Positions 19,895 to 51,876 of a stretch of DNA of 64,000 nt are shown in pieces. Location: contig JACPRW010000010.1 of the NCBI GenBank assembly GCA_016193585.1, positions 40,962 to 104,961 of the forward strand. The letters run 5' to 3'. Every line of letters starts with the position of its first letter. Within the stretch, counting starts at the first letter, position 1. A program made the position numbers and the translations under genes. Source of the DNA: Candidatus Aenigmatarchaeota archaeon (GTDB taxonomy: Archaea; Aenigmatarchaeota; Aenigmatarchaeia; GW2011-AR5). The notes under the pieces were generated by a model. The model was not told where the DNA came from and did no database searches. It worked only from the letters and a program-made list of their open reading frames with translations.

Positions 19895-20725
19895 GATAGG
19901 GGAAGGTGAATCTACAAATACTAGCCTAAACAAGGTTAGTATATGCCTCCAACGTCAGTATCTTTACATCAAATTAGAAAGATGTTCAGAGACGTTAAGA
20001 AACTGACAAAAGATTTCAGAGAAATAAAGCCAGAATTGATTGAAAATGATGCATCCAAAATACTAATCTTGCGCTTGGCTCTCCAAATGTCGCAAAATAA
20101 TTTTGAAACATTTGTCGGGGCTGAAAACAACAAGAATATCAGCAAGTATGAAAGGGGCATCATAAAGAAAATGAAAGCGAAAACTGCAGAAAAGTACATA
20201 GAAAAGATTAAAGGAAAACTAAAAGAAAATGTAACAGAAGAAAATGTACTTCTGGCTTACAAAAGAATGGCTTCTGAATCAAATGGTTTCTTCAAAGCAA
20301 ACCAAGGGACTAAAAAAGTTCTCTTGGCCCAAAGAAAAGGTGCAATAAATTCATTGCGTCTCAGATCGACTGAACAGGAAATGTCTGTGATGGCTTTTCT
20401 CGAGTCTAACGGACTTAATCCAGAGATAAATTTTCCATTAGACGAAAACAAAGGCATCATAACCGACATCTTTCTACGAGATCATCATATAGCAATTGAA
20501 TGTAAGGATATCAAAACAAAAAGCTACAAAGAGCACAAAAATAACATACGGCTTCTTGCATATCAAGGTTATAGAATAAAATTTAATTTCAAAACACTAA
20601 AACTTGCTGCATTCGTGAAATCTAACTTCGCAGTAAGTCAGAGAGACCTTGAAGAATTGAAAGGACCTTATGATTTTGTTTTTACTGACGTTGGAGAGCT
20701 GAAGCATATCATCGTCCCCTAGCCG
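19895..20725 (+). mobile_element. 16S intron near site ~1205 encoding a non-LAGLIDADG nuclease
   Basis: ATAGGGGA...TCCCCTA terminal stem; interrupts GACGGTCGACGGCAG | ATGTCAGTATGGCCCGAATTCC. Confidence 0.85.
19943..20722 (+). CDS. Predicted XRE-HTH + PD-(D/E)XK-like (putative homing) endonuclease
   Basis: LALQMSQNNFETFVG..ISKYERG HTH-like; RSTEQEMSVMAFLESNG...ITDIFLRDHHIAIECKD nuclease-like motif; no LAGLIDADG. Confidence 0.65.
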   Translation: MPPTSVSLHQIRKMFRDVKKLTKDFREIKPELIENDASKILILRLALQMSQNNFETFVGAENNKNISKYERGIIKKMKAKTAEKYIEKIKGKLKENVTEENVLLAYKRMASESNGFFKANQGTKKVLLAQRKGAINSLRLRSTEQEMSVMAFLESNGLNPEINFPLDENKGIITDIFLRDHHIAIECKDIKTKSYKEHKNNIRLLAYQGYRIKFNFKTLKLAAFVKSNFAVSQRDLEELKGPYDFVFTDVGELKHIIVP

Positions 20726-22532: not shown

Positions 22533-22549
22533 CCGAAAGAATTAGACAC

Positions 22550-22696
22550 GGGCTGGTAGATCAGCTGGAACACGTGCGGCAAAGATCGCCTGCTTTGCAA
22601 ATGCCCCGCAGCCTGCGGCTGCGTTGCATCCCATTTTACGATGAGAGGGGCAATCAAACCAGCAGGAGGCCATGGGTTCAAATCCCATCCAGTCCA
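22550..22696 (+). tRNA. tRNA-Ala(TGC) with ~61-nt anticodon-loop intron and D-loop insertion
   Basis: GGGCTGG/CCAGTCC; CCTGC TTTGCAA [intron 22601..22661] GCAGG; T-arm ATGGGTTCAAATCCCAT. Confidence 0.88.
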
Positions 22697-24038
22697 TTAT
22701 GAGCTACCGATGGGAACCGCAGCGCATCGAGCTGCCGCTCGACGTCAGGTGGCCGCAGTTGCGGGAAGTCTATGAGCGTCTCGACAGGAAGGGGAAAAAG
22801 TCTCGGTATCGAGACGCATCCGACCTACCTCATTGTCGTTGCCGTACCGCTTGATCCTCGGGACATGAGCGACATCCGGCGGGTGAACGGACCGGAAGGC
22901 TACCATGCAGGGGATTGAATCGCGGCTCCCGCACTCGTCATCTTTATATACTTTTATCCGGTATTAGTGCTGGTTGCAGGGTCAGCAATCCTGCGTTTGT
23001 TTTACAGTACCATACGAGAAAACTACCGAGGCTGTTCAGAGTCGGTACAAGCTTTGTGGCAGAAGCGTGTGTCGTCAGCGGGTAGCGGCGTGAATCAGAA
23101 CGTCACTATGCATGCGTTGCTTCTGGACTTCTTCGGTGCACTACCTGCAATGGCAGCACGCTGTGCGAGTCAGCTGTTGTCGGTTGACATGTGGCCGGCC
23201 AGCGCCGCTGGTTTGGTTGAATGCTGATGTTCTTGATGAGGCAGTCATAGTCCAGGACGAAGATAGCTAGCTCCCACGCTGTCAGGTGGATAGCTCGGTT
23301 CGCGAGGCGACGAAGGAGGTGGCAAGCTGCCGTAAGGTGCGGCAAGGCGCATGCAGCCTTTGAACCGCACATCTCCGAATGGCACATAGCCGACAACTCG
23401 CGGAAGACAAATCGACGCACCCTCAGGTGCGTCAAGTCGCTTTCTGCGAGAGCGAACGCAGAGAATTAAAACATTTTAGTACCTGCAGAAAGAGAAAGCA
23501 ACAGCGATCTCCCCAGTAATGGCGAATGAAAAGGAGACAGAACAAACCGAAGCTCCCTGGAAACAGGGTAGCGATGTGGAGAGGGCAGGGGCCGTTCTTC
23601 GTTTGCCGACCCGAAGTGTGCTGGAACGCACTGGTACAAAGCGTGATACCCGCGTAGGGGAAGGCAAAAAAGAATATGCCCTGCTGCACGAGTATGGCCG
23701 GCCGGATAGCCGGTCAGAATACGGGTCTCATCTAGACCCAATTCTAAACACTCCGCGAAACCGATAGTGAAGTAGTACGGTGACGGAACGATGAAAAGAA
23801 GGGGTAACACCCGATGAAAAAAGCTTGAAACCTGGCAGCTATCGTTTGTTGGGTAAGGCTCCCGCAAGGGAGAAGAATCCAACGTCCGTTTTGAATAACG
23901 GGGCAGGGAGTTCATGGCAGTGGCGAGGCTAAGCGCTTCACGCGCGGAGCCGGAGCGAAAGCGAATGCGCGCAGGCAACAAGGCGCACCGTATGAAAGTG
24001 CGGAAGTCACTGCCCTGAGACCTGAAAATTTGGGAGTG

Positions 24039-24862
24039 AGTGAAGGTTTGCTGGCTCGATGGGCTTATTTTTCTTTTGCTGAAGCGAAATTAAGATAAGC
24101 CCATCTTGCCCAATAAGTCTATGGAAGCGAGAGATACGTTGATGGCTCGGCTCATAGCTTTGTTGCTTACCGATGGCGGACTTTGTGGAATAGGTAAAAG
24201 GTGGCGGATTCATTTCACGTCAAATTCAGAACAATTGGTAAGTGAATTCCAAGCACTGGTAAAGAATCTTTTCGATCTCAAAATGGTAAAAGACTATCGG
24301 AAAGGTGCATGGAGAATTCAGACATGGGTGAGCAATAAAGTGAAAGAAGAGCTTTTAGCATATTCCAAAACGTATAGAACGCTTTCTATAGAGGAAAAAG
24401 AGACGGAAGCTGAAATACCGGCTTTTATCAGAAACGACAAAGAACTTGCACGCGAATTCCTAAAATATGCATTCACGGCAGACGGGACAGTAATTTTCAA
24501 CATCGGAAAAGCACGGTATGGCTTTAGGTTCGATAGATGCGTGAAATTATATTCCGAGCACGCCCGTCTGAGAAACCAGTATTTCGAACTTTTGCAGAAA
24601 CTTGGTTATAGACCGGTCATGCTTAAAGATGCGGTGCTGCTAAGAAAGCCAACCAACATGACTAAGTTTGCAAACGAAATTGGTTTTGTAGAAGGTGTAA
24701 AAATTTCAGGCAAAGGTTTATGGAAAGGTATTACAAAAGACCGATTAACGGAATTCGCCGCAAATTCGTACAGTTTGAAGCCGAAAAAATTGGGGAAATC
24801 AAAAGCTGACATTCATGCGAACCTTGTAAATCTCATTCTCAAATCAGGAGACCAGATGATCT
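24039..24862 (+). mobile_element. 23S intron with LAGLIDADG gene
   Basis: Interrupts ..GGGAGTGAG | CTAGCCCTGGGCAAGG.. Confidence 0.8.
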
Positions 24863-24864
24863 AG
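24106..24864 (+). CDS. LAGLIDADG homing endonuclease
   Basis: LIALLLTDGGL and FLKYAFTADGTV; stop TAG lies in the 3' exon CTAGCCCTGGG. Confidence 0.88.
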   Translation: MPNKSMEARDTLMARLIALLLTDGGLCGIGKRWRIHFTSNSEQLVSEFQALVKNLFDLKMVKDYRKGAWRIQTWVSNKVKEELLAYSKTYRTLSIEEKETEAEIPAFIRNDKELAREFLKYAFTADGTVIFNIGKARYGFRFDRCVKLYSEHARLRNQYFELLQKLGYRPVMLKDAVLLRKPTNMTKFANEIGFVEGVKISGKGLWKGITKDRLTEFAANSYSLKPKKLGKSKADIHANLVNLILKSGDQMI

Positions 24865-24956
24865 CCCTGGGCAAGGCGACGCTGGGCGAAAGCTCAGTAG
24901 AAGCCTGCTACCGAACATAGTACAAACTTGTCGGGTGACCTGGGGTTAGGGGTGAA

Positions 24957-25273
24957 ATTCAGGGAGAAGAAGACTTAAGAAGATGTCCGTGAAAATGCGA
25001 GGAATGGGAACATGTGAGTATTGCAAACGTCCTGTATCGCCATTCGGCGATATGTCACGAGGGATACCGGGCCCATCGTATGCACTGCTGGAAGATGGTA
25101 AAGAAATAGCATTTTGCGGGGTTCCTTGTGAAATGTTCTATGTGCTGGAAACGGGCACTTCGCTCAGAAAAACTGATGGAAGACCGAATGAAGCATTTCC
25201 AAGCGATATTGGAAGTGAAGGCATCGCGGATCCTAAACATCCTGGATATAGCAAGAACTAGTTCTCTCTGAAC
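24957..25273 (+). mobile_element. 23S intron encoding a small zinc protein
   Basis: TTCAGGGAGAA / TTCTCTCTGAA termini; interrupts GGGGTGAAA | AATCGAATCTGG. Confidence 0.75.
24983..25261 (+). CDS. Intron-encoded TRASH-like zinc-binding protein (92 aa)
   Basis: CEYCKRPV...IAFCGVPCEMFYVLE (CxxC..FCxxxCxxFY). Confidence 0.55.
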   Translation: MSVKMRGMGTCEYCKRPVSPFGDMSRGIPGPSYALLEDGKEIAFCGVPCEMFYVLETGTSLRKTDGRPNEAFPSDIGSEGIADPKHPGYSKN

Positions 25274-25620
25274 ACCAAAAGCCAATCGAATCTGGTTATA
25301 GCGGGTTCCTTCCGAAATGTATCTCAGTACAGCCTCGTCTTGGGTAGATAGTGGGGTAGAGCACTGATTAGGCAGTCAAGGAGGGAGACTTCCACCTGTC
25401 TTGTCAAACTCCGAATCCATTATCGCGCAGACGGGAGTGAGCATGCCGGAGTAATTTTGGCATGCGAGAGGGAAACAACCCAGACCATGGTTAAGGTCCC
25501 TAAGTAGCTGTTAAGTACACCGAAGGTAGTCCTGAATCTCAGACAACGGGAAGGTTGTCTTAGAAGTAGACATCCTATAATCAACGTGTAATAACGGACC
25601 CGCCGAGATTCAGGGCGCTG

Positions 25621-25690
25621 AAAATAAACTTTTTGGGAAAAAGTTTAATCAAAAACCCAGAATGTTTGTCAGCAAAATGGACGGGGTTAA
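25621..25690 (+). mobile_element. 23S mini-insertion homologous to the tRNA-Val D-arm intron
   Basis: TAAACTTTTTGGGAAAAAGTTTAATCAAAAACCCAGAAT vs TAAGCTTTTTGGGAAAAAGCTTAACCAAAAACTTGGAAT. Confidence 0.75.
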
Positions 25691-25830
25691 ACAGCTCACC
25701 GATACCATGGGCACTGCACCCGCAGTGTGGTAGGGAGGCGTGCTGCGAGGGCAGAAGCTTCTCCGTGAGGAGGGGTGGACCTTGCAGCAATGAAGATCCT
25801 GCCGGGAGTAGCAATCAAGTCGGGCGAGAA

Positions 25831-26198
25831 ATGGCAGGAGAAGGTATATGAAAGTTTCTGATAGAGTAAATAGTACTGATAAATAGACTTGAAATAAGGT
25901 TTTCCACATGCATCAGTATAGGCTTAGTCTAAAAAGATGGAAAATTTCAAGTGAATTGCCGCGTATAGCAGGCGAGTTTTATGAAGCAGTACACAAACGG
26001 CAACTCTGGGATAATTTAAGACCCGAATTATCAATTAAACCTGATGGGCCTTATGTCAATACGTGCCATCTTAGAGTCAGGAAAGGATTATACCCAGCTA
26101 TTTATTCTATGGCAGATTCTTACGATTTAGAAATAGAAGATACAACATCTTTGTTTCTACGACTTAAGTTTTGGTAATTCTTTCTCCTCCACTCAATT
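25831..26198 (+). mobile_element. 23S intron encoding an 89-aa orphan protein
   Basis: AGGAGAA / TTTCTCCT termini; interrupts GTCGGGCGAGAA | AATTCCCGACCGCC. Confidence 0.7.
25908..26177 (+). CDS. Intron-encoded orphan protein (89 aa)
   Basis: ORF fills the insertion; no recognised family. Confidence 0.45.
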   Translation: MHQYRLSLKRWKISSELPRIAGEFYEAVHKRQLWDNLRPELSIKPDGPYVNTCHLRVRKGLYPAIYSMADSYDLEIEDTTSLFLRLKFW

Positions 26199-26995
26199 CC
26201 CGACCGCCTGAGGGGCCAGGGTTTCCGCTTAAAGCTTATCTGAGCGGAGTTAGCCGGTCCTAACCGCGCTCTTACGAAGACGCGTGGGAAAGGGAAACAG
26301 GTTAACATTCCTGTGCCATCCAGTGTTCGTCAATCCTGCGGTAAACGCTTCAGGATAGTCCGAGTATGGTCGTCGCCATATCCAAGCCTCGAAGCCGGGG
26401 GAGTGTAGTAACTGCGAGAACCCGGTGAAAGGGTGACGGGACTGATGTATGTCGGTTTTGGACGACTCCCGGAGCCCATGAAAATACTGCAGAGTAGAAT
26501 GCTGGGTGCCCGTACCCAGAACCGACTGTTTAGTTGATGTACTCAACTAAATCGGGAAACAGGTGCCCCTCGCTGAGAACTGAAAAGAGAAGTGTAAACG
26601 CACAGGCAAGAAGTACTCTGAAACCAGCGATCCAGAGCGGTCGATAAACTATGTAGCCAAGCCTGCCAGTGCACGAAACTGGAACTTCTTTTCTTTTCAC
26701 TCAATGGCGAAGGTGTTCGGGAGAATCCGCCTTAGGGAATTCGGCACGAATTGTTTGTTCATGCAAACATTCCCGTAAAATTAGCCGGGTATCTTTGGTA
26801 GAACCGGTGCCTAGTCAGGGATGACTAGGTCGCAGTGACAAGAGGGGTCCGACTGTTTAACAAAAACATAACTGACCGACAAGCCGAAAGGCCTTTTATG
26901 GTCAGCGAGTCGTGGCCACTAGCGGTGTGTGAAACCCCATTCCAATGGGTCTATGCCCCGCTGTAGGCCGGCCCTAACTCTGAGGGTCTTAAGGT

Positions 26996-27288
26996 GACAA
27001 CGTTGCCTTAGTAAAATTTGGCTATATGCGGGAACATCTTGGTGAAGCTTCAGTAGGCAACTGCTGTGGCGACACGGCAACAAAACCTAACAATCTGAAG
27101 CCAAGAGACAATCCGCAGGAAAGGCTTCTCTTTTGGAGAAGAATCCCCAGAGACTGTACGCCAGACTCTTCAATCGGAAGAGAAGATACAGTCCGAACCT
27201 CACGGTGACGTGAGGAGGCGCCAGCGAGTGCCCGCCTTTCACGATAATTATCCGAACCAATGTGAAAGGTTCCCAAGCAACAGAATTG
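26996..27288 (+). mobile_element. Group I intron in 23S rRNA (site ~1931), no ORF
   Basis: P1 AAGGU/GCCUU with U.G at the splice site; P/Q TATGCGGGAAC ... GACAATCCGCAGG; R/S AGACTGTACGCC ... AAGATACAGTCCGAACC; terminal G before exon AGCGTAATCCC. Confidence 0.9.
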
Positions 27289-27310
27289 AGCGTAATCCCT
27301 TGCCAACTAA

Positions 27311-27363
27311 ATTGCAAAAAGCAAAGCTTTTTGGGATCCCCGAAAAGCCATGCTTTTCGTAGA
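27311..27363 (+). repeat. 23S insertion: double hairpin with GGATCC linker
   Basis: CAAAAAGC-aaa-GCTTTTTG GGATCC CGAAAAGC-cat-GCTTTTCG. Confidence 0.8.
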
Positions 27364-27626
27364 TATTGGCCTGCATGATAGATTCACGAGATCCCTGCTG
27401 TCCCGAGGCGGAACCCGGCGAAACCATTTTTCTGGTGAGTAGGCCAGAGACCTCTAGTGGGAAGAGTAGACCCCGTGGAGCTTTACTGTAGTCTGATGTT
27501 GTGGTATGCGTATGAGTGTATAGCGTAGGTAGGAGGCGTCGAAGCCCTGCTGTAAGGTGGGGTGGAGCCGGCGATGTAACACTACCCATTCAAACGCATA
27601 TCGCTCACTTCGCGAGAAGGACACCA

Positions 27627-28280
27627 TCAGATGGACAGTTTGGCTGGGAATTCAAGAGAGGCTAACGAGTTTTTGGCAATCCCAAATTTAGGCGAGTTGC
27701 TATCAGACACAAGGCTCTCATCCAAGAACCCTGAAACTGAAAGAAAGCGCTTGCAGTTGTCAAATCCGGTGATGAGCACAGCCCTGCCGGTCAACCGGCA
27801 CTGTATGTCAAGCGTGGCAAGGCATTCGGCGAGGTGCGTTCTGAGATGCGGATAGTAGCAAGTAATTTCAACTCTGAGTATGCTGTATTTTTTGTTGGCA
27901 TACACTGAACCGTCGCCAGAAGCAAACCCCCTGAGAAAAGCTGCCGCAAAGCTCCTGTCGGTGCGTATAGCAACAGGAACGTTGCAGGTACCTTTTCTAT
28001 AGTGGGGATGCTTTGCTTCCACGCCGTTTCCGGGGATTGATAAGGAAATCAAGGCTCTAGCAATTGGTGAGGAAAAGAACCTCACCGAAACCGCATTGGT
28101 GCATTTGTTTTCGTGAAACCTGCTGATACCGAAACAGTCATGCGCAAGTTTCATGAAAACGTGCCTCAAGCCTTGAAGCTTATTGGTAAATTGGATGCAA
28201 TACGTGCGTTTCGATTTGTCATAATAAATTGAGCCGTCTGATAACAACAAACCGAGAAAAGTTGCCATCTTTTCGTCCAT
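27627..28280 (-). CDS. LAGLIDADG homing endonuclease encoded antisense to 23S rRNA
   Basis: FLGLLLSDGSI and FLRGFASGDGSV; likely start MDEKMATF; stop in the upstream rRNA exon. Confidence 0.85.
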   Translation of the reverse strand: MDEKMATFLGLLLSDGSIYYDKSKRTYCIQFTNKLQGLRHVFMKLAHDCFGISRFHENKCTNAVSVRFFSSPIARALISLSIPGNGVEAKHPHYRKGTCNVPVAIRTDRSFAAAFLRGFASGDGSVYANKKYSILRVEITCYYPHLRTHLAECLATLDIQCRLTGRAVLITGFDNCKRFLSVSGFLDESLVSDSNSPKFGIAKNSLASLEFPAKLSI

Positions 28281-28365
28281 GATGCTTGTTTGCTCCCTGT
28301 GTTTATAGGTGCTTGCCGAGCACATGAAGACTGAAAAGTCGATGAGTTTACTCTCTTGGGTCAGC
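27649..28365 (+). mobile_element. 23S intron carrying an antisense LAGLIDADG gene
   Basis: Interrupts GGACAGTTTGGCTGGG | GGCGGTACGC; CAAGAGAG / CTCTCTTG termini. Confidence 0.82.
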
Positions 28366-28569
28366 AGGCGGTACGCTTTTGAAAGGATATCAAAAGCCCC
28401 CAAAGTTCGGCTTGGCAGGGTCAGAAATCCTGCGGTCAAGTGCAAGCGCAAATGCCGGATTGACTGGACTCCCAACAGTACGGTGTCCAGCGTCGAAAGA
28501 CTGGGCTAGCGATACGCTGGTTGGCCTAGATGGCTGCCAGTGACATGAGAAAAGCTACCCCGGGGATAG

Positions 28570-29165
28570 ATTTATACGTCGGTGTGCACAAGTTAAGCGA
28601 ATGCAAGAAAAAGGTTTCATCTTGGGTGCAACTGAAGACGGTATACTCTACTACAGAGAGAATAAGAATGAATATGGCCTAGAAATCGAACAAAAAGTAA
28701 TGGAATGGCTGTTAGTTGTCCAGGAAGCGCTGAAAATTGCCTATAACAAGCAATCCAGAATAAGGAAAATGAAAAAGGGCTATTATAGGTTGAATGTGTA
28801 TTCAAAATCGCTCTATCATGAGCTGGTTGGATTACGAAACAACCCACAGCGCATTCTTGAGCAACCAGAAGCATTCCAGACTGGCTTCCTTCAAGGTATT
28901 TTTGATGCAGAAGGAAGCGTTCGATTAGATAGAAACCATATAAGCGTCAGCTCAAATAGGGAAAGTCTGATAAGCCTAGTTACTTTCCTGTTAGTCAAAA
29001 GGGATATAATTGCAGGAAAACCATGGCAAGATTCAGCTGGCGTGATATCTCTGTCAATATATGGCATAGATGATATCAAGAAGTTCTCTGATTTAGTAGG
29101 ATTCAGGCACCCTGAAAAAAAGCATAGACTTCAACTTTTAGTGAATGGTGTATAAATCCCCTATA
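28570..29165 (+). mobile_element. 23S intron in the peptidyl-transferase region with LAGLIDADG gene
   Basis: Interrupts GCTACCCCGGGGATA | GGTGTCGTAGCGGGTGAGAG. Confidence 0.8.
28601..29155 (+). CDS. Single-motif LAGLIDADG homing endonuclease
   Basis: FLQGIFDAEGSVRL. Confidence 0.8.
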   Translation: MQEKGFILGATEDGILYYRENKNEYGLEIEQKVMEWLLVVQEALKIAYNKQSRIRKMKKGYYRLNVYSKSLYHELVGLRNNPQRILEQPEAFQTGFLQGIFDAEGSVRLDRNHISVSSNRESLISLVTFLLVKRDIIAGKPWQDSAGVISLSIYGIDDIKKFSDLVGFRHPEKKHRLQLLVNGV

Positions 29166-29198
29166 ATGGTGTCGTAGCGGGTGAGAGTTCTCATCCGC

Positions 29199-29446
29199 GC
29201 TCTTCTTGAGGAATAACGCTGGTAGTGACGAGAATATACCCGTCCCAGTATGAGCGCCGCTTCGCGGCGCGGTGATTACAGCAGGGTAGCTTCTGAACCA
29301 GGCGAAACGTTGTTCCGCAAACACTAGCTAGATGAAGAGCTCATAGCCTTCGAGCCGTCGAAGGCGCTCAGAGCTGTCGTTAGTAAGCAGAACCGAGAGC
29401 CGTGGAGGTCTCGGAACTGCGAGCGAAGCGAGTGGTTCTGAGTGCG
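29199..29446 (+). mobile_element. 23S ORF-less intron
   Basis: TCCGCGCTC / GAGTGCGGA termini; interrupts GAGAGTTCTCAT | CAGATCGACCCCGCG. Confidence 0.72.
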
Positions 29447-29509
29447 GAGAACAGATCGACCCCGCGTGTTGCGGCGTCGCTGTCGGCTGGGCCTCTCCTG
29501 GCTGTGCAG

Positions 29510-29624
29510 CAAAGAAATAAGGCGAACATCTTGCTTGCCCTCAACCGTTTGACACGGCGGATAGCCTCGTATGAAGAACGGCGTTACAAGCGGGATAAGA
29601 ATAACGCCTTGTTTCTCTGCATGC
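29510..29624 (+). mobile_element. 23S ORF-less insertion
   Basis: GCAAAGAAATAAGGCG / CGCCTTGTTTCTCTGC termini. Confidence 0.68.
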
Positions 29625-30173
29625 AGCCAAGGGTGACGGAGTTCACGTATTAAAAGGCCACCTTAGCTGGGTTCAGAACGGCGTGAGCCAGTTTGGTCTA
29701 TATCTGCTAGAGGTGTTACTGCCTGAGGGAAAGGAGGGATAAGTACGAAAGGAACATCCCTTCGTGGCCTCTAGTTTACCTGCTGTCTGACAAGGCATGC
29801 AGGGTAGCCACGCCATACGCTCATTAGGGCTGAAGGCATCTAAGCCTGAAGGAGCTCTCGAAAAGAGGCAGATGGTACGCGCAAGACGACGCGGTATGGG
29901 AGCGGGGTGTACGCACCGAGCTTCGGCGAGGTGTTCAGCCCACGCTTCCCTACACCAATGCTAGCCTTCAAATGGCGCCAGTTGCGGCTGGCGCTTCCTG
30001 GAAACAGGGTCCTGAGACTATGACTGCCCCACGGGAAACGCAGGAATAGCTACTTTAACCTACATTCTCGGGTATAGAAAGGCTTATATATTAGTCCGTT
30101 ATATAAAGTAGTACGTGTGGTTTGGGTTACTCAGTTAATTCAATACATTACAGGCTAGATTGGGGTGTGGACT

Positions 30174-51711: not shown

Positions 51712-51876
51712 TTACGCAGGTTTCGCCCACTTGAACCTTCTTGGGTCCCTGCCGAGCTTGAGCAGGTTCTTTTCGCATTTCTTGCTGCAGAACCAGCTTA
51801 TCTTGCCTGCCCTGTCGACGACCATGGTACCGGTCCCTGCTTCGAGCGTGCCGCTGCAAAACGAGCATTTCGCCAT
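51712..51876 (-). CDS. rpl24e: Ribosomal protein L24e
   Basis: MAKCSFCSGTLEAGTGTMVVDRAGKISWFCSKKCEKNLLKLGRDPRRFKWAKPA. Confidence 0.95.
   Translation of the reverse strand: MAKCSFCSGTLEAGTGTMVVDRAGKISWFCSKKCEKNLLKLGRDPRRFKWAKPA

Follow-up and report, generated by a model that had tools for sequence, protein, structure and literature searches.

Does the 23S rRNA gene of this archaeon house, within one of its introns, a gene that is not a homing endonuclease, and if so, what kind of gene is it? The locus lies in a window of 64,000 nucleotides (the whole stretch of DNA that was analysed), which is part of the 1.17 Mb genome G000 of Ca. Aenigmatarchaeota. Archaeal rRNA introns have been reported to contain LAGLIDADG genes, hairpins and uncharacterised remnants (PMC4496867; PMC6125680), and those of CPR bacteria also 23S_rRNA_IVP and GIY-YIG genes (PMC11270868). 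The first-pass annotation had described a small zinc protein without nuclease motif inside a 23S intron and had called such a cargo unexpected. With fairly good confidence we regard the feature as a BHB rRNA intron which is the home of an autonomous gene for something other than a homing endonuclease, and most likely it is one member of a class of BHB rRNA introns in which autonomous genes other than endonucleases have settled. The elements on which the analysis is based are the following:

23262–29969, forward strand: host 23S rRNA gene, split by several introns (match to RF02540, archaeal LSU rRNA, 1661.8 bits)
24027–24864, forward strand: LAGLIDADG intron with approximate ends, situated about 95 nt upstream of the intron under study (insertion; LAGLIDADG_3, E 1.5e-8)
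24951–24957, forward strand: 5' strand of the BHB, central helix GGTG (24951–24954) and bulge AAA (24955–24957) (folds; counted pairs)
24957–25278, forward strand: BHB-type intron of 322 nt, exon junction GGGGTGAA/AAGCC (insertion relative to intronless relatives; BHB ends with covariation)
24958–24968, forward strand: 5' arm of the intron stem, TTCAGGGAGAA, partner 25262–25272 (11-bp helix; covariation)
24974–24981, forward strand: TATA-like box CTTAAGAA, with a purine-rich BRE-like stretch (24962–24973) before it (spacing of 26 nt to Met8; peak at 24–26 nt across the class)
24983–25261, forward strand: ORF of 92 aa, ATG to TAG, as called in the first-pass annotation (ORF list; coding tests)
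25004–25261, forward strand: probable actual gene, which starts at Met8 and encodes 85 aa, with C-x2-C...FC-x3-C (promoter spacing; N-terminus aligned with that of eL24, MAKCSFC)
25262–25272, forward strand: 3' arm of the intron stem, TTCTCTCTGAA, with the stop codon abutting (fold; comparison)
25273–25279, forward strand: 3' strand of the BHB, CACC (25273–25276) and bulge AAA (25277–25279) (folds; counted pairs)
25831–26195, forward strand: another intron of this 23S gene with a small ORF (89 aa, 25908–26177); intron ends approximate (insertion; ORF length; codon model)
51712–51876, reverse strand: canonical eL24 gene of the same genome (compared with the intron ORF)

The 23S gene spans 23262–29969 as compared to the usual ~2.9 kb and is oversized because several introns lie inside it, namely LAGLIDADG introns, a group I intron at 26965–27215 and two introns with small ORFs. 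The 92-aa ORF was indeed located in one of these introns, at 24983–25261 within a 322-nt insertion into the LSU rRNA match. In many relatives the site is empty and the uninterrupted sequence reads GGGGTGAAAAGCCAATCGA, i.e. GGGGTGAA followed by AAGCC without gap; since 322 nt separate the two here, the intron comprises 24957–25278, and comparison with intronless homologues revealed the precise insertion expected of an archaeal BHB intron. The site, counted by hand from the E. coli sequence, presumably corresponds to about E. coli position 782. The intron ends fold into the 11-bp stem, the four-pair GGTG/CACC helix and two AAA bulges, corresponding to a BHB motif (4-bp central helix, 3-nt bulges at both splice sites) in a relaxed form, because a 3x3 internal loop forms on the outer exon side. 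Among 12 introns at this site standard pairs occupied 93.8% of the pair cells, double changes were found in all stem pairs (8/8), and 29 double-change cells were observed versus 8.9 upon shuffling. As a control, the partner was slid by 1–3 columns, whereupon pairing fell to 30–53%. Furthermore, the G000 genome contains a gene for the tRNA-intron (splicing) endonuclease, and the spliced 23S junction is predicted to read GGGGUGAAAAGCC. A group I identity of 24957–25278 was rejected, as RF00028 matches only 26965–27215.

Several other elements were observed in and around the rRNA genes. The group I intron at 26965–27215 (Rfam 68.9 bits) carries no long sense ORF and sits alongside BHB introns. 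A LAGLIDADG gene at 27627–28281 (reverse strand) lies inside an intron, antisense to the 23S, and antisense ORFs of 188–217 aa were found at the same site in L133, L169 and L141. A 16S intron ORF at 19943–20722 encodes 259 aa with an HTH-like N-terminus and, judged by eye, a PD-(D/E)XK-like motif (TDIF...AIECKD); it showed no Pfam match and a weak match to a PHROG homing endonuclease (E 0.012). A motif like GAAA..TAGATAAG..C.GCTTC, a candidate promoter or RNA element, occurs ~25 nt before the start codons of homing-endonuclease genes and is shared by the LAGLIDADG ORFs of L131, L136, L143, L169, L171 and L177 at different 23S sites. At ~22547–22698, the 16S-23S spacer contains a tRNA-Ala-like sequence (GGGCTGGTAGATCAGC ... 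GGTTCAAATCCCATCCAGTCCA) with insertions, which was reported by neither ARAGORN nor Rfam.

To judge from its sequence, the ORF at 24983–25261 is very probably coding. In dinucleotide shuffles a sense ORF of this length arises by chance with P ~0.003. According to a codon model for intron genes, for which 29 long-intron ORFs, mostly of the LAGLIDADG type, had served as training set, the log-odds were +13.3 in frame versus −12.0 and −25.9 in the two remaining sense frames, and none of 500 shuffles reached the score of the ORF (P < 0.002). A codon model trained on host genes failed to recognise the ORF (P 0.37), probably because intron genes, unlike host genes, have AT-rich third positions. Upstream, GGGAGAAGAAGACTTAAGAA resembles a BRE/TATA promoter whose TATA-like part lies 26 nt before the ATG at 25004, and leaderless archaeal genes exhibit the same TATA-to-start spacing. 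Because the box CTTAAGAA is found 26 nt before it, Met8 at 25004 is probably the true start, which would yield a product of 85 aa beginning with MGTCEYCKRP. The promoter score of this gene was 4.4 versus a class average of 5.6, and it fits only with the Met8 start. No homologue of the 92-aa protein was detected in 156 genomes of the phylum, GTDB contigs, IMG/VR, phages and plasmids; phylum matches at E 0.01–0.2 turned out upon inspection to be canonical eL24 (L005, L007) or noise. An origin of the ORF from a host-gene fragment was discarded, the genome containing no parent.

The intron is one of several of its kind. For the census, insertions in the 23S regions of 59 relatives (metagenome assemblies) and of G000, i.e. 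60 genomes, were listed against a profile built from 23S genes that are largely free of introns, and an insertion was assigned to the class if it held one sense ORF of 65–160 aa with P ≤ 0.02 for its length and no LAGLIDADG remnant. Seventeen of the 45 insertions of 180–559 nt fell into this class, with about one false positive expected at the threshold of P ≤ 0.02. These introns, 262–524 nt in length and distributed over 11 of the 60 genomes, carry mutually unrelated, non-LAGLIDADG small ORFs. An 18th member was found outside the census on contig L075, resulting in a total of 12 genomes or contigs and approximately nine sites. The contig is named Nomurabacteria (a bacterium) but contains a 23S stretch of the Aenigmatarchaeota kind with a BHB intron and is probably mis-binned. 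With the intron-gene codon model the annotated frame was the best of the three sense frames for each of the small ORFs (18/18). The TATA score of the 18 introns peaked 24–26 nt before the start codon with a mean of 5.6 versus 2.8 for shuffled sequences, a value reached in 0 of 2000 shuffles; the box varies by member, and a few class introns are without a good one. Since a similar, weaker TATA peak also precedes the genes of the long introns, mostly LAGLIDADG, the intron genes of this phylum seem to be transcribed independently. In several class introns the stop codon lies directly against the 3' arm.

Searches of the 18 small ORFs against Pfam, NCBIfam, PHROGs and PADLOC returned no confident family. 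Hints of RimP-SH3 (E 0.0048) and LSM (E 0.02) for the 108-aa ORF of L172, as well as a Cas6 hint among the small ORFs, were not trusted. The L172 intron (profile column 848) places this possible RNA-binding cargo at the very site of the zinc-knuckle ORF. The 89-aa ORF at 25908–26177 likewise yielded no family in domain scans, and at the site of its intron L131, L133 and L134 hold introns of 321–349 nt with other small ORFs. Phylum-wide searches with six cargoes (92, 83, 112, 160, 89 and 108 aa) gave convincing relatives for one of the six only, the 160-aa ORF that lies in a 23S intron of G073. Over 117 residues it matches free-standing genes of G088 and G072, whose open frames comprise 171 and 172 codons, respectively, with no rRNA in either neighbourhood. 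A profile of these two genes scored 32 bits for the intron ORF versus 10.4 bits for the best of 3660 scored shuffles. The 160-aa cargo is thus the firmest case of a non-endonuclease family gene inside a 23S intron.

Against this background it appears unlikely that the ORF at 24983–25261 is a chance or decaying frame in a degenerate homing-endonuclease intron. Such a frame would have no homologue and could fail the host-codon test, as observed, and LAGLIDADG remnants do occur in other introns (L141, L147). However, the frame is intact at a length of P 0.003, its coding signal reaches P < 0.002 and it bears no LAGLIDADG similarity; the promoter spacing is class-wide, in several class introns the 3' arm follows the stop codon immediately, and one member of the class has true homologues.

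The first-pass annotation had further suggested a maturase, an RNA chaperone or a minimal DNA-binding homing factor; on such a reading the protein would serve its intron, in the case of the chaperone by assisting BHB splicing. It is a small, intron-encoded protein, and its zinc-knuckle-like pattern would be compatible with nucleic-acid binding, but the other occupants of the site render these roles improbable. Five small-ORF introns are found there with ORFs of 83, 86, 92, 108 and 112 aa, among which no relationship was detectable; the likeness of their DNA is confined to ~20 nt at the 3' end, shared by three of the four others. Relatives contain ORF-less introns of 44–69 nt with the same BHB at the same site, which in other genomes is occupied by a LAGLIDADG intron. 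Consequently, splicing at this site does not need the 92-aa protein, and the splice-competent shell is independent of its cargo. It is the splicing endonuclease that takes out BHB introns (PMC7714728). The absence of a nuclease motif noted at first reading was confirmed, as no LAGLIDADG or other recognised nuclease domain was found in the ORF: Pfam gave no LAGLIDADG match at E ≤ 10, whereas neighbouring ORFs do match, and neither Pfam nor NCBIfam matched 23S_rRNA_IVP. The only His of the 92-aa protein is located in its tail, and a His-Me nuclease core is therefore lacking. A role in the service of the intron is accordingly disfavoured.

What the protein resembles can be stated in part. The predicted C-x2-C ... 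FC-x3-C pattern is present and uses the only four cysteines of the protein, and the top three matches of phmmer against PDB sequences were archaeal eL24 (E 0.11 to 0.5), in alignments that bring the four cysteines into register. The claimed TRASH/L24e-like character is thus backed by the four-Cys pattern and a distant eL24 match, but the resemblance is weak and membership in the family is not established. The intact protein matched neither Ribosomal_L24e nor any other domain library profile (Pfam, NCBIfam, PHROGs) and falls short of the eL24 family profile; Pfam Ribosomal_L24e was matched (E 0.033) only by a shortened copy with the loop removed. Our own profile of ~30 eL24 sequences gave 8.4 bits in two pieces, the best of them 4.7, and the best-domain score was reached by 13 of 5000 full shuffles and by 69 of 5000 shuffles with fixed cysteines. 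A TRASH-type zinc knuckle in the broad sense has C-x2-C and FC-x3-C pairs separated by a beta-hairpin; the only four cysteines fit the two pairs. The structure prediction proposed in the first-pass annotation was run with AlphaFold without alignment and, with pLDDT 44 for the 85-aa protein (50 for the 89-aa protein), was uninformative for the fold, and the strands of the model were given no weight. In common with eL24 and TRASH zinc knuckles the intron protein has the C-x2-C ... FC-x3-C spacing and a short N-terminus; it differs by a longer loop and another C-terminus, and the similarity is not significant. Taken from the sequence, a treble-clef or TRASH-like zinc knuckle in the 85-aa protein is plausible. 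That the gene encodes a divergent eL24-like ribosomal protein inside the rRNA which it would bind, comparable to fungal mitochondrial rps3, is a very doubtful proposition, since the eL24 matches in PDB, the position in the 23S and the alignment of MGTCEYC from Met8 with MAKCSFC are outweighed by a canonical eL24 gene already present at 51712–51876 (a relocation of eL24 into the 23S was rejected on this ground), by the failure of Pfam to find the intact protein, by the missing GTGKMFVKNDG and KWT segments, which are conserved in the eL24 of relatives, and by a score within reach of 69/5000 Cys-fixed shuffles.

For the preferred reading, a BHB intron colonised by an autonomous non-endonuclease gene, the following course is proposed. 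The splicing endonuclease would cleave within the two bulges of three nucleotides, after 24956 and after 25278, whereupon the exons would be ligated and the intron, released from the pre-23S, would be joined into a circle, a fate described for substrates of this enzyme in Haloferax (PMC7714728). Separately, the gene would be transcribed from a BRE/TATA promoter that belongs to it and lies in the 5' arm, presumably as a leaderless mRNA starting from or near Met8. Its product would be a small protein of the treble-clef/TRASH type with four cysteines, which may bind zinc and which, as a cargo, should be dispensable for splicing. Silence at the RNA level could explain why the intron persists. It may spread by co-conversion with neighbouring LAGLIDADG introns, and the one at 24027–24864 is a possible driver; cutting by I-PogI is known to carry along a neighbouring ORF-less intron (PMC4496867).

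In comparison with known systems, the intron shares its type, host gene, BHB ends and splicing route with the archaeal BHB LAGLIDADG introns, which are present elsewhere in this 23S, but its cargo is not a recognised endonuclease and it measures ~320 nt versus 600–1400 nt. The 'HP' hairpin introns of Thermoproteales 16S genes (PMC4496867) possess the same BHB shell, to which the 44–69 nt versions at this site correspond, whereas here the loop is occupied by a gene that has its own promoter signal. Fungal mitochondrial rps3 in the rnl intron (PMC4162613) is likewise a non-endonuclease cellular gene in an LSU rRNA intron, but there a group I intron in a mitochondrion carries one conserved cargo, while here archaeal BHB introns carry many unrelated ones. 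Bacterial 23S_rRNA_IVP intervening sequences (PMC11270868) also place a small non-endonuclease ORF in a 23S insertion; they are excised without ligation and contain one known family, in contrast to the BHB ends and orphan proteins observed here. With respect to the open-access literature, in which no account of the class was found, the cargo may rightly be called unexpected, but it is not a singleton. Surveys of rRNA introns annotated their ORFs by Pfam (PMC4496867, PMC6125680, PMC11270868) and would miss orphan cargo, that is, protein genes inside rRNA genes.

In reviewing one of these surveys (PMC4496867), W. F. Doolittle asked whether anything stops genes essential for the cell from colonising rRNA introns, which the authors found hard to answer. 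The class renders the question of colonisation testable, although 'essential' status is not implied for its genes. Besides the usual selfish nucleases, the rRNA introns of these archaea thus seem to accommodate ordinary genes. More tentatively, the 23S BHB introns may constitute a gene-cassette system whose cargo genes have been exchanged over evolution, and its shell could, with similar reserve, consist of a purine-rich arm doubling as BRE, a TATA box, one small gene and a stop codon abutting the pyrimidine-rich arm. If this were true, the cassette system would provide a protected, mobile place for the cell's accessory genes.
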